Origin: Bacteroidia bacterium
GTDB lineage: Bacteria > Bacteroidota > Bacteroidia > UKL13-3
NCBI GenBank assembly: GCA_020049855.1
Contig: JAGVLJ010000023.1
Span: 1 to 43,692, forward strand
Direction of reading: 5' to 3'
Length of the DNA: 43,692 nt
The notes under the pieces: generated by a model
Seen by the model: the letters and a program-made list of their open reading frames with translations, nothing else
The model's database searches: none
Told to the model about the DNA's origin: nothing
Shown: piece by piece, positions 2,589 to 25,455 of the stretch
How the letters are laid out: each line of letters begins with the position of its first letter
How positions within the stretch are numbered: position 1 is the stretch's first letter
Translations under genes and position numbers: made by a program

Positions 2589-3896
2589 ATGGGGGCATTT
2601 AAAATAACAGGTGGACTACCCCTTAGCGGCACAGTAGTTCCTCAGGGTGCCAAAAACGAAGCACTTCAAATTATCTCAGCCGTTCTGCTCACTCCCGAAA
2701 AAGTTACTATTTCCAATATACCCAATATTCGTGATGTAATGAAACTCATCGAACTGATTGGTGATATGGGAGTCGTAGTGCAACAGGTTAATGAGCATAC
2801 ATTTTGTTTTGAAGCCGGAGAGGTAAACCTTGAATACCTGCGCAGTGATGATTTTCGCAAAAAAGGAGCAGCACTACGCGGTTCCATTATGATTATTGGT
2901 CCTTTACTTGCCCGTTACGGATTAGCATATATTCCCGAGCCGGGAGGGGATAAAATTGGAAGAAGGCCGGTTGATACACACCTTCGCGGGTTTGAAGCAT
3001 TGGGTGCTACCTTTGATCATTTACGTGATGATCGCTACTATCGCATTGATGCCAGAAACCTGAAAGGAACCTATATGGTACTTGACGAAGCTTCCGTAAC
3101 TGGTACAGCTAATATTGTGATGGCTGCTTCATTGGCAAAAGGGATTACTCAAATTTACAATGCTGCCTGCGAACCATACCTGCAGCAGTTGTGTAAAATG
3201 ATTAACCGCATGGGTGGAAAAATAAGCGGCATAGGATCTAATTTACTTACCATTGAAGGCGTGGAAAATTTAGGCGGATGTGAACACCGCATGTTGCCTG
3301 ACATGATTGAAATAGGAAGCTTTATCGGGCTGGCTGCTACTACCAATTCTGAAATTACGATTAAAGATTGCTCCATTGCTGAATTAGGCGTTATTCCATC
3401 CGTATTTAAAAAGATGGGAATCGAAATGGAATTCAGGGGAGATGATATTTATATTCCTAAGCAGGATTCGTATAAAATTCAAACACTCATTGACGGATCC
3501 ATTCTTACTATACGCGATGGCATTTGGCCGGCTTTTACACCCGATTTGATTTCCATTGCGTTGGTTACGGCAACTCAGGCTAAAGGAAGTGTACTCATTC
3601 ACCAATGGATGTTTGAGAGCCGCTTGTTTTTTGTCGACAATCTGATTGATATGGGAGCTAAAATTATTTTATGCGACCCTCATCGTGCGGTAGTAATTGG
3701 TTCGAATCGTGAAACAAAGTTACGTGGAATTACCATGAGCTCTCCTGATATCAGGGCAGGAGTGGCAATGCTCATTGCCGCTTTGGCTGCTAATGGCACA
3801 AGTACGATCAATAATATTGAACAAATTGACCGCGGATATCAACACATTGATACACGTTTGCGTGCACTGGGAGCTAAAATTGAACGAATAGATTAG
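2589..3896 (+). CDS. murA: UDP-N-acetylglucosamine 1-carboxyvinyltransferase (MurA)
   Basis: MurA transfers enolpyruvate from PEP to UDP-GlcNAc, the first committed step of cytoplasmic peptidoglycan precursor synthesis. The 435 residues match the family length. Lys22 sits in the conserved QGAKNEAL motif. The active-site loop reads PEPGGDKIGRRPVD: Asp121 stands where E. coli has catalytic Cys115, the residue that fosfomycin alkylates. The rest is typical of the Bacteroidota form (DEASVTGTANIVMAA, CEPYLQQLCKM, MFESRLFFVD, SPDIRAGVAMLIAALAA). It lies just after DUF4290 on the same strand and no second enolpyruvyl transferase is visible, so it is probably the housekeeping enzyme. Confidence 0.96.
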   Translation: MGAFKITGGLPLSGTVVPQGAKNEALQIISAVLLTPEKVTISNIPNIRDVMKLIELIGDMGVVVQQVNEHTFCFEAGEVNLEYLRSDDFRKKGAALRGSIMIIGPLLARYGLAYIPEPGGDKIGRRPVDTHLRGFEALGATFDHLRDDRYYRIDARNLKGTYMVLDEASVTGTANIVMAASLAKGITQIYNAACEPYLQQLCKMINRMGGKISGIGSNLLTIEGVENLGGCEHRMLPDMIEIGSFIGLAATTNSEITIKDCSIAELGVIPSVFKKMGIEMEFRGDDIYIPKQDSYKIQTLIDGSILTIRDGIWPAFTPDLISIALVTATQAKGSVLIHQWMFESRLFFVDNLIDMGAKIILCDPHRAVVIGSNRETKLRGITMSSPDIRAGVAMLIAALAANGTSTINNIEQIDRGYQHIDTRLRALGAKIERID

Positions 3897-22489: not shown

Positions 22490-22780
22490 ATGACAAAAGA
22501 AAGAAAAAATTACAGCCCTGAGTTTAGGATAAAAGCTGTAGAGTTAATCAGCGCCCTGGGTAGTTTAAAGCCAGTAGCCACCGAGCTTAATGTAAACCAC
22601 AATACACTTATCCGATGGAAAAAGGAGTACCGAGCCGATAAACTTACTGCCAGTGGGGTAAAAGTTAAGAGCAAAGAAGAGCAAGAGTTACAATCATTGC
22701 GCAAAGAATTAAATGAAATACGATTAGAGCGTGATATACTAAAAAAGGCCGTAAGCATCTTCTCCAAGAGCGACCGATAA
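22490..22780 (+). CDS. IS3-family transposase OrfA (helix-turn-helix)
   Basis: A 96-residue DNA-binding subunit of the transposase. MTKERKNYSPEFRIKAVELI and ATELNVNHNTLIRWKKEY form the HTH, and the C-terminal part ELQSLRKELNEIRLERDILK is the leucine-zipper-like region that multimerises OrfA and OrfAB. Slipping on A-AAA-AAG at 22741-22747 moves ribosomes into the -1 frame, which reads RKHLLQERPIRYQFIKEHK and joins orfB without a stop. Confidence 0.9.
   Translation: MTKERKNYSPEFRIKAVELISALGSLKPVATELNVNHNTLIRWKKEYRADKLTASGVKVKSKEEQELQSLRKELNEIRLERDILKKAVSIFSKSDR
22741..22747 (+). promoter_or_regulatory. -1 frameshift slippery site (A6G) of the IS3 element
   Basis: AAAAAAG is phased as A AAA AAG in orfA. 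The -1 frame is open from here through orfB up to its premature stop. This is the known IS3-family arrangement for making OrfAB. Confidence 0.7.
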
Positions 22781-22806
22781 GGTACCAATTTATAAAAGAA
22801 CATAAA

Positions 22807-23676
22807 ATGGAATTTCCGGTTGGGAAGATGTGCCACGTACTTGAAGTAAGCAAAAGCGGCTATTACCAATGGCTGCATAGGCAATCAGGCAAGCGAGCCA
22901 TGTTTAACCAACAACTGATGCTAGAAATAAAGCAAGTATATACAAAGAGTAAATGCCGATACGGCAGTCCGCGCATAGCCAAAGAGTTGCAAATGTTAGG
23001 CATTAAAGCCTCCACACCCTTAGTTGCACGGCTTATGAAAAAAGAAAATATACGAAGCATTATCAAAAAGAGATTTAAACAAACTACCGATTCAAAACAC
23101 CATTATCCAGTGGCCGAAAATAAGTTGATGCATCAGTTTACAGTGAGAGAAAAAAATGAAGCATGGGTATCAGATCTCACTTACATCCGTACTTAACATG
23201 GGTGGCTATATCTTACCACCGTTATTGATTTGTTTGACAGAAAAGTAATTGGATGGGCTTTAAGCAACAACATGAACGCACACAATACAAACGTTGCAGC
23301 CTTTAAAATGCCCTTAATAAACCGTCCCATCAAGCACGATAAACAATTAACTTTTCACTCCGACAGAGGTGTTCAATACGCTTGTTATGACTTTACTTCA
23401 TTGCTAAAAAAGCATTCTAATATCACTAAAAGCATGAGCCGCAAAGGCAACTGCTGGGACAATACCGTTGCTGAAAGTTTTTTTAAAACCTTAAAAGTTG
23501 AACTCATCTATCAAAACAAATACGAAACAAGACAACAAGCCGAACTAGCAATTTTTGAGTACATTGAAACTTTTTACAACACCACCCGAAGACACAAATA
23601 TTTAAACAACCTCACTATTTTAGAATATCACAAATCAATTAACTTTAACAACTTAAACAATGCTACATGGGTCTAA
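22807..23676 (+). pseudogene. IS3-family transposase OrfB, disrupted by an in-frame stop
   Basis: The integrase-core (rve/DDE) half of the transposase. All of it lies in one frame: EFPVGKMCHVLEVSKSGYYQ, the first catalytic Asp in WVSDLTYIRT, a TAA stop at 23194-23196, then HGWLYLTTVIDLFDRKVIGW, the second Asp in FHSDRGVQYA, and the catalytic Glu in NCWDNTVAESFFKTLK. The stop falls between the first and second catalytic residues and could come from a single change of a sense codon such as CAA. No frameshift is needed, so decay is recent, or the stop is read through, or it is a sequencing error. Confidence 0.88.
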
Positions 23677-23727: not shown

Positions 23728-23752
23728 GTTACCTCGTCATTTGCGAGGTAAC
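23728..23752 (-). terminator. Hairpin at the 3' end of dnaX
   Basis: GTTACCTCG (23728-23736) and CGAGGTAAC (23744-23752) form a perfect 9-base stem with a 7-base loop, overlapping the dnaX stop codon by one base. No T tract follows, so termination is plausible but not certain. Confidence 0.5.
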
Positions 23753-25455
23753 TACTCAATCTCCAACCCCAGTTTCATTCTTAACTCATTCAAAGCCGGG
23801 TTTTCATTGGCCATAGCTTCAAATTTATCTTTATTAGTATAGTAGGTTTTTTCTTGTTTTTCTTCTTTGGCCAGCACAATTTCAATGTAAATGCTGCGGT
23901 TGTCCAGTTGCTCTTTTAAAAAAGAAAGCAGGTTCAAACGGTCTTCTTCGGCCTGGGTAAGTTCTCCTTTATGGCTTACCTCCAGCTGCACTTTATTGTT
24001 TTCAATCTGAGGTTTTATGGTTTTGTACACTGCAAATAAACTAGGCTTACCCTGTGCGCTCACCATTTGCATATAGGTCTTCCAGTGTTTGTCAAAGGCA
24101 AAAGCATCAATTTCTTTAGGGGCTACTTTTTTTTCTTCCTGTTCGGTTTGCGCTTTTTGAATAGCCTGCTGTTCGGCTACTTTATTTTTGATAACACTCA
24201 AATTTCCCAATTTTTGGGTCAATGAGGCAGGCGGAACTTTCACAACAGGAGCAACAGATGATATAGCTGGGGTAGTTACGAGTTTAGATACCGTTTCGCT
24301 GGCTATATCAGTTTTTTTTTTATCCGACCCGTTATCGGCCACCAAATTTTTTGTATCAATGAGCGATTGCAGGTAACACAGTTTCATGAGGCACAACTCC
24401 ACGTGCAGCCGCTGGTTTTTGCTGCTCTTGTAGTTAATATCAAACTGGTTCACAATATTGAGGGCATTAAGAATAAACGAAGCCGGAATGGCCTTCGATT
24501 GTTCAAGGTAACGTTGAGCCACGTTTTCGCTCACTTCCATTAGTTTCACGGTTTGCGAATCTTTGCACATCAACAAGTTTCGCAGGTGCTCGCTAATGCC
24601 TATTAAAAACTGGTGTGCATCAAATCCTTTTCCCAATATTTCATCAAACAGCAACATGGTTTTGGCCAAATCCTGCCCGTAAAACAAATTGATGATGCGG
24701 AAGTAATAGTCGTAATCAAGAATATTGAGGTTGGTAATTACATCGTGGTAGGTAATGTGGTTGCCCGAGAAACTGACAATACGGTCAAAAATAGAAAGTG
24801 CATCGCGCAGGGCTCCTTCGGCTTTTTGAGCCACCACGTGCATGGCATCGTCTTCGGCATTTATTCCTTCTTTAGCGCAAATGGATTTAAGGTGATCTAC
24901 CGAGTCCTGAACCCGAATACGTTTAAAATCGAAAATTTGGCATCGGGAGAGGATGGTAGGTAAAATTTTATGTTTCTCGGTAGTGGCCAAAATAAAAATG
25001 GCGTAGGGAGGCGGTTCTTCCAGTGTTTTCAAAAAGGCATTAAACGCAGCAGGAGAGAGCATGTGCACCTCATCAATAATATAAATTTTATATTTAGCTC
25101 CCTGTGGGGCATATCTAACCTGATCTACCAACCCCCGTATATCTTCCACCGAGTTGTTGGAGGCCGCATCCAGCTCATATATATTAAAGGAACTGGAGTT
25201 ATTAAATGCCAGACATGAGTCGCATTGGTTGCAGGGCTCCACCTCGGCAGTCATATTCTGGCAGTTAATGGTTTTGGCCAAAATACGTGCACAGGTAGTT
25301 TTCCCCACTCCACGTGGACCGCAAAACAAGAAAGCATGAGCCAAGTGATTGCTTCGAATAGCGTTCTTAAGCGTTTGGGTTACATGGCCTTGTCCTACTA
25401 CTGTATCAAAGGTGGCGGGGCGGTACTTACGTGCTGAAACTACAAAATGATCCAT
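23752..25455 (-). CDS. dnaX: DNA polymerase III gamma/tau subunit
   Basis: The clamp-loader ATPase that organises the replicative polymerase. Its 567 residues show the Walker A GPRGVGKTTCARILAK, a zinc module (CQNMTAEVEPCNQCDSC), Walker B IYIIDEVHMLS, the sensor-1 region ILATTEKHKILPTILSRC, domain III ending at about residue 365, then a Lys/Glu/Pro linker and a tau-specific C-terminal domain. At 24312-24321 the coding strand has ten consecutive A residues (Lys379-Lys381). A slip into either other frame meets a stop within one or two codons, giving a gamma-like protein of about 382 residues. A perfect -7 box lies upstream. Confidence 0.96.
   Translation of the reverse strand: MDHFVVSARKYRPATFDTVVGQGHVTQTLKNAIRSNHLAHAFLFCGPRGVGKTTCARILAKTINCQNMTAEVEPCNQCDSCLAFNNSSSFNIYELDAASNNSVEDIRGLVDQVRYAPQGAKYKIYIIDEVHMLSPAAFNAFLKTLEEPPPYAIFILATTEKHKILPTILSRCQIFDFKRIRVQDSVDHLKSICAKEGINAEDDAMHVVAQKAEGALRDALSIFDRIVSFSGNHITYHDVITNLNILDYDYYFRIINLFYGQDLAKTMLLFDEILGKGFDAHQFLIGISEHLRNLLMCKDSQTVKLMEVSENVAQRYLEQSKAIPASFILNALNIVNQFDINYKSSKNQRLHVELCLMKLCYLQSLIDTKNLVADNGSDKKKTDIASETVSKLVTTPAISSVAPVVKVPPASLTQKLGNLSVIKNKVAEQQAIQKAQTEQEEKKVAPKEIDAFAFDKHWKTYMQMVSAQGKPSLFAVYKTIKPQIENNKVQLEVSHKGELTQAEEDRLNLLSFLKEQLDNRSIYIEIVLAKEEKQEKTYYTNKDKFEAMANENPALNELRMKLGLEIE
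24312..24321 (-). promoter_or_regulatory. A10 slippage site within dnaX
   Basis: Ten A residues on the coding strand are read as AAA AAA AAA A. One extra A, or a -1 shift, gives AAC TGA directly after the lysines. One A fewer, or a +1 shift, gives CTG ATA TAG. Both end the protein just after domain III. Transcriptional slippage or frameshifting at such runs is known from Thermus and E. coli dnaX; its use here is inferred. Confidence 0.6.

Follow-up and report, generated by a model that had tools for sequence, protein, structure and literature searches.

An A10 run in dnaX of a Bacteroidia bacterium as a probable transcriptional slippage site, with tau or gamma in frame among its relatives

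The gene dnaX, lying in a 43,692-nucleotide stretch of DNA from a Bacteroidia bacterium (contig JAGVLJ010000023.1; hereafter the window), contains ten consecutive adenines shortly after the region encoding the clamp-loader domains. Through this run, one gene very probably gives rise to both a long and a short clamp-loader subunit, and the run itself is likely to be programmed for slippage, chiefly during transcription. RNA polymerase would realign on the ten A's and release mRNAs with 9, 10, 11 or more of them. Those carrying ten (or ten plus or minus three) would be translated into full tau of 567 aa, while the others would reach a TGA or TAG one to two codons past the run, yielding gamma-length proteins of 382-383 aa that would possess all three clamp-loader domains and be devoid of the tau tail. 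We infer such slippage, its mainly transcriptional nature and the use of gamma from the anatomy of the site and, among relatives, from conservation of the run, its independence of codon phase, the closure of the alternative frames and repeated changes in which product is encoded in frame.

The dnaX gene and its adenine run

The window encodes tau in the zero frame as a single ORF, so that its dnaX is not split (Table 1). The product matches the NCBIfam model NF011531 at 760 bits (cut-off 685) as well as the Pfam AAA, lid and domain III models. A preliminary description of this DNA had reported an A10 run at codons 379-382 followed by stops in both alternative frames, and both statements agree with the sequence: ten T's on the plus strand at 24312-24321 correspond to A10 on the coding strand, at nucleotides 1135-1144 of dnaX, with the first A in codon position 1 (AAA AAA AAA ACT). 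With one A added the reading becomes GAT AAA AAA AAA AAC TGA, ending after 382 aa; with one A removed it becomes GAT AAA AAA AAA CTG ATA TAG, ending after 383 aa. The predicted C-termini of the two short proteins are SDKKKN and SDKKKLI, respectively. The same description put the run exactly at the end of the clamp-loader domains, which needs correction, as the domain III match ends at residue 372 and the run lies seven codons further on.

Table 1. Features of dnaX and of the adjoining element in the window
Feature	Position	Strand	Basis
dnaX, DNA polymerase III subunit gamma/tau, tau frame, 567 aa	23752..25455	-	ORF, NCBIfam, Pfam
Clamp-loader domain III (PF12169), closing the stretch that gamma and tau share	24340..24720	-	Pfam
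A10 run at codons 379-382, putative slippage site for RNA polymerase	24312..24321	-	Sequence; conserved in relatives
TGA that would be met with one extra A in the mRNA (gamma, 382 aa)	24308..24310	-	Sequence count
TAG that would be met with one A fewer in the mRNA (gamma, 383 aa)	24303..24305	-	Sequence count
Tau-only part, linker and C-terminal domain	23752..24311	-	Location beyond the run; tau of relatives matched over its full length
Possible 9-bp stem directly after the run (24302-24310 with 24259-24267)	24259..24310	-	Folding z -1.33
IS3-like orfA (HTH_Tnp_1)	22490-22780	+	ORF, domain match
IS3-like orfB, two pieces (HTH_21; rve)	22807-23196; 23230-23676	+	ORF, domain match

The possible stem after the run is probably incidental. 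Its folding score was equalled in 18 of 200 shuffles, and its nine base pairs are broken in the two nearest relatives (L003 and L004). The genome encodes both tRNA-Lys(UUU) and tRNA-Lys(CUU). Counting both strands of its 2.9 Mb, A10 occurs at ten places, a few of the others falling inside coding ORFs, so the diagnostic property of the dnaX run is its conservation and not A10 alone. Three such ORFs (L325, L329 and L332) encode a TPR histidine kinase (T10 on the coding strand), a GNAT acetyltransferase and a TonB-dependent receptor, and their internal T10 or A10 may possibly mediate slippage or phase variation. An IS3-like element lies just downstream of dnaX (22490-23676, plus strand); the stop between the two pieces of its orfB suggests that it is probably inactive.

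Sample of relatives and methods

Relatives were taken from the 30 best-matching genomes, a draw from the class, a draw from the phylum, the best 80 of 594 named loci, and fetched regions. A dnaX gene was found in 322 loci; removal of seven duplicates and three sequences that stop short of the linker left 312. Each gene was scored by its longest A run within a stretch of about 80 codons spanning the domain III end and the sequence that follows it. The class draw comprised 149 genomes, of which 143 were read; outside this count stand two genomes without a match (G043, G101), one with its match at a contig end (G057), one covering residues 1-156 only (G046), and two whose sequences are identical to the named loci L052 and L110, both A10 (G137, G150). 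For the family of the window, 35 genomes were searched and 27 examined, the window included, with eight matched genomes outside the count. Outside the class, the phylum yielded 109 matched genomes, of which 55 were chosen to cover families, and 52 genes were read.

Frame analyses covered the 243 genes with enough sequence, and the stops expected by chance were estimated from 200 shuffles of the tau-frame codons that follow the run. Changes were counted on a FastTree phylogeny of the 312 rows, built from the part of dnaX before the run.

Conservation of the run

At least nine consecutive A's occur in 247 of the 312 distinct genes (A9 in 49, A10 in 178, A11 in 18, and A12 and A13 in one each), and the remaining 65 have 0-7, none having A8. 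In the class draw the run is present in 120 of the 143 genomes read (20 A9, 89 A10, 10 A11, one A12, no A8) and in 54 of 62 families. As 23 of these 143 genomes do without it, gamma production by the slippage route is dispensable, a point against a programmed site. All 27 genomes examined in the family of the window, from 12 genera, possess the run, 11 of them in split genes. It was also found in 29 of the 52 genes from other classes of the phylum and in 62 of the best 80 of 594 named loci. Within these best 80, it is present in all representatives of Sphingobacteriaceae (5/5), Chitinophagaceae (10/10), Saprospiraceae (4/4) and Hymenobacteraceae (3/3), and it is absent, with tau in the zero frame, from those of Bacteroidaceae (5/5; L089, L094, L102, L105, L108) and Prevotellaceae (3/3; L084, L099, L100).

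Relatives keep the run and the double stops while the flanking codons vary, as the preliminary description had supposed, and recoding of the run with AAG codons was seen in none of the 26 other genomes examined in the family, each of which has A9, A10 or A11. Its proposal that the site serves to produce gamma is thus supported by anatomy and conservation. The claim that this output "evolved here" is too local, since most genomes of the class draw, and some of the wider phylum, have the site; the A-run site in dnaX is probably old. A difference in length can be seen within one family code (f13), where L165 has A7 and L129 has A10 between nearly the same flanks. The dnaX of a reduced genome of about 0.5 Mb (L268) ends at about 353 aa, with no tau tail evident in the printed frames after that end, and perhaps encodes gamma only.

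Split genes and changes of polarity

Tau occupies the zero frame in 170 of the 243 genes, is reached by a shift of +1 nt in 68 and by +2 (or -1) nt in five. In 73 genes, therefore, gamma is encoded in frame and tau solely after a shift. Such split genes occur in sister genera of the window, and in the class draw dnaX, read plainly, stops as gamma in 33 of the 143 genomes, which retain the tau tail in another frame. On the 312-row tree polarity changes at least 35 times (mean 62.7 and minimum 55 when labels are shuffled) and presence of the run changes 27 times, counts that are indicative given one gene and an approximate tree. A single A can separate the two states. L042, with A11, encodes tau in frame, whereas L082, with A10 and near-identical flanks, encodes gamma in frame; L285 (A10) and L294 (A9), 96% identical in the common part, likewise differ in polarity.

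Assembly error is an unlikely source of the split genes because whole families are split among the genes examined (family codes f2, 3/3; f11, 4/4; f14, 4/4; f42, 4/4). Single cases could be such errors, including some of the five +2 genes and L073, which has no A run, a zero frame that stops at codon 384 and an apparent tau tail in the +1 frame.

Long homopolymers are mutable. The run length might accordingly change at the DNA level, switching cells between tau and gamma only, and the related species that differ by one A and have opposite polarity (L042/L082, L285/L294) are what such phase variation would leave behind. This explanation is nonetheless very improbable, as 178 of the 247 run-bearing genes have length 10, and the fully split families (f2, f11, f14, f42) would be whole lineages lacking tau unless a shift takes place.

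Stops in the alternative frames

Both alternative frames close soon after the run. Pooled over the 243 genes, the median distances to a stop are 1 and 2 codons (7.2 and 12.2 in shuffles), and 229 genes have a stop in each frame within 12 codons, where shuffles give 83.7 genes on average and 99 at most. For the 170 genes with tau in frame, the median is one codon in the extra-A frame (shuffles 7.1) and three in the missing-A frame (shuffles 12.3), the latter being closed within five codons in 135 (shuffle maximum 62). The 68 split genes give medians of three (shuffles 7.7) and one (shuffles 12.1), and the frame with the median of three is closed within five codons in 51 of them (shuffle maximum 38). 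Closure beyond the shuffles in both frames, and in both classes of genes, is what a slip in two directions needs.

These observations also bear on whether a lysine-rich linker simply uses AAA codons by chance, the run having no function. Some other ORFs of the genome do hold A10. In the linker, however, the run is not due to chance: in the remainder of the region read, 373,471 nt, the same 243 genes contain only five runs of A9 or longer (three A9 and two A10). Among relatives the run starts in codon phases 0, 1 and 2, thereby encoding different residues, so that no single amino-acid sequence accounts for its retention. Together with early stops far above the shuffles and the 73 genes that have no tau unless shifted, the three phases lead to rejection of a chance lysine stretch, an explanation to which next to no probability is assigned.

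Proposed slippage by RNA polymerase or by the ribosome

The lengths of the run, its independence of phase, the occurrence of both shift directions, the closure of two frames and the two tRNA-Lys species make transcriptional slippage the most likely mechanism. The occurrence of both directions among orthologues is named as a sign of transcriptional shifting in a passage of Antonov et al. (2013; PMC3711429), and by this criterion the dnaX shifts would be transcriptional and not ribosomal. The argument from direction rests on five genes, as 68 of the 73 split genes shift in the same direction (+1 nt, equivalent to -1 for the ribosome).

That majority is in turn what would be expected if ribosomes slipped, by -1 frameshifting or by sliding of tRNA-Lys on the A's, and produced gamma from homogeneous A10 mRNA. 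The frame entered by a -1 ribosomal shift, or by one extra A, is also the more tightly closed (median of one codon versus three), the heptamer A_AAA_AAA lies inside every A10 whatever its phase, and sliding of ribosomes on AAA stretches is described in part of the text of PMC4363877. Two genes without a long run (L131 and L195) have A_AAA_AAG with a -1 stop two to three codons on, which suggests that a ribosomal route may at times replace the run. Even so, ribosomal slipping appears an unlikely main route. The runs comprise at least nine A's, none of the 312 genes having eight, and are longer than a slippery heptamer requires; the frame not entered by -1 shifting is likewise closed well beyond the shuffles; five genes require the opposite direction; and the genome has two tRNA-Lys species. 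The length threshold is not absolute, as published split dnaX genes include examples with A8 and A7 (PMC3711429).

Stimulatory elements were sought around the run. No conserved Shine-Dalgarno (SD) element and, apart from a slight folding excess, no conserved stem was found near it, which again speaks against ribosomal frameshifting. No shared flanking sequence was found over the 243 genes besides the borders of the run and a few weak positions. SD-like words precede it in 34 of 243 relatives compared with 21 at a control position, and no SD-like element is apparent by eye in the 24 nt upstream of the run in the window. A search over the 243 genes for a conserved hairpin near the run gave only a slight folding excess: against base-composition shuffles, mean z is -0.54 to -0.62 at +3 to +15 and -0.25 to -0.46 elsewhere, and 15-16% of genes fall below z -2 just after the run compared with 6-12% elsewhere. 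This weak excess fits ribosomal slipping and suggests that stimulators in some lineages are possible.

An in-frame TAG in one Bacteroidales family

Two Bacteroidales loci without the run (L097 and L109) have a TAG after domain III, beyond which tau continues in the same frame. To the two were added 78 loci (L337-L414) of the same family, that of G308. Of these 80, 53 are distinct dnaX genes in which tau continues in frame past an in-frame TAG-ATNGCNAG, invariant and placed directly behind domain III (for example L109, from position 3099); as the loci were picked as best matches, 53 of 80 is not a family frequency. Twenty others lack an early stop, four have TAG and only a short continuation in that frame, one ends too early and two are duplicates. 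The TAG is found at codons 363-380 and is followed by 182-254 sense codons (L402 being cut by a contig end). In the pattern TAG-ATN-GCN-AG, which gives a UAG-AUNGCNAG context, the bases TAG, AT, GC and AG are invariant in 53/53. A CGCC-NNN-GGCG element lies at +13 after the TAG in most of the 53 genes; in the 44 of 53 rows that are free of gaps, three inner pairs of this candidate hairpin never vary and so give no evidence of covariation, and no Rfam match reached the gathering score in five TAG loci.

The simplest reading of these 53 genes is probably programmed UAG readthrough. Their 30,752 in-frame codons contain no further stop, and tau ends at TGA 28 times, at TAA 13 times and at TAG 11 times. 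The part after the TAG evolves as protein, with a median pN/pS of 0.43 versus 0.08 for the common part (23 close pairs), and the tau end of a TAG gene retains a weak but recognisable similarity to tau of the window (29% over 58 residues, E 2e-5, in a single comparison).

Other explanations were considered. Reassignment of TAG is rejected, given the absence of any other stop in these codons and the use of TAG as terminal codon in 11 of 52 tau, and also because rpoB has no inner stops in the eight genomes where it was found (of ten) and prfA was found in 2/2. In one genome with 41 tRNAs, the roughly 32 inspected included no suppressor tRNA with anticodon CTA. Re-initiation is disfavoured, as the first in-frame ATG after the TAG lies at least 16 codons on (median 82.5; 52 genes) and the first start lies at least 11 codons on (median 25.5; 52 genes) when GTG and TTG are counted. 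In three relatives of the TAG genes (L410, L412 and L413) the TAG that closes the zero frame stands in CTTAGCTAG or CCTAGCTAG, and another frame holds tau. Since A9-A10 is still present in other members of the family (L354, L355, L356, L358, L364, L365), the run was probably lost and replaced by the TAG. No report of dnaX readthrough was found in the titles and abstract openings searched, mostly outside subscription journals.

Comparison with known dnaX systems

In Escherichia coli, gamma arises from dnaX by -1 ribosomal frameshifting at A_AAA_AAG. The window resembles this system in the gene involved and in the kind of output proposed, with gamma ending soon after domain III. It differs in lacking A_AAA_AAG (the run reads AAA AAA AAA ACT) and in showing no SD-like element upstream by eye; its possible downstream stem is not intact in the two nearest relatives, while folding over the relatives is in slight excess.

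Larsen et al. reportedly described in 2000 transcriptional slippage at an A9 run in Thermus thermophilus dnaX. The system is treated in these terms in passages of PMC1088944 and PMC5009743, the latter of which also suggests that two tRNA-Lys species may bear on the use of slippage in Thermus. The window shares with Thermus a sense-strand run of 9-10 A's, tau in the zero frame, near stops in both other frames and the two lysine tRNAs (UUU and CUU), which accompany this type without defining it. Unlike Thermus, it has A10 rather than A9, belongs to another phylum, has relatives that are often of reversed polarity, and is described here from sequence alone.

The reversed type is also in print. 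Portions of Antonov et al. (2013; PMC3711429) present 17 split dnaX genes from 12 genera as a new type, 12 of them with poly-A (nine A10 and one each of A9, A8 and A7), the A8 and A7 genes being from Chlorobium. Site kind and run length are the same as in the reversed-polarity relatives found here. The window departs from that type in having tau in the zero frame, whereas 73 of 243 relatives conform to it. Since the program of Antonov et al. seeks frame transitions, it would presumably miss genes like the 170 of 243 here whose tau is in frame. The dnaX gene of the window belongs to an already known kind. An A10 run in dnaX spanning a class or all of the phylum Bacteroidota was not reported in the literature searched, which consisted of titles and abstract openings, mostly outside subscription journals and outside the supplement of PMC3711429. 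Within that scope, the breadth of the site, the majority of in-frame genes and the frequency of reversal were not found in print, and the site looks far wider and more changeable than described.

Implications for gamma and tau in Bacteroidota

The role of gamma has long been disputed, according to part of PMC5009743. A signal that persists over most of the class, has repeatedly reversed its polarity and has apparently given way to an unrelated signal in one family is evidence from evolution that having both products is of benefit to cells. We lean towards the view that Bacteroidota strongly need gamma as well as tau, and that signals of several kinds may be interchangeable at this one spot: A9-A13 with tau in frame, A9-A13 with gamma in frame, and readthrough of UAG-AUNGCNAG. 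For annotation, it matters that the 33 of 143 class genomes in which a plain reading calls gamma keep the tau tail in another frame. The survey also names many organisms in which the benefit of having both gamma and tau is testable.
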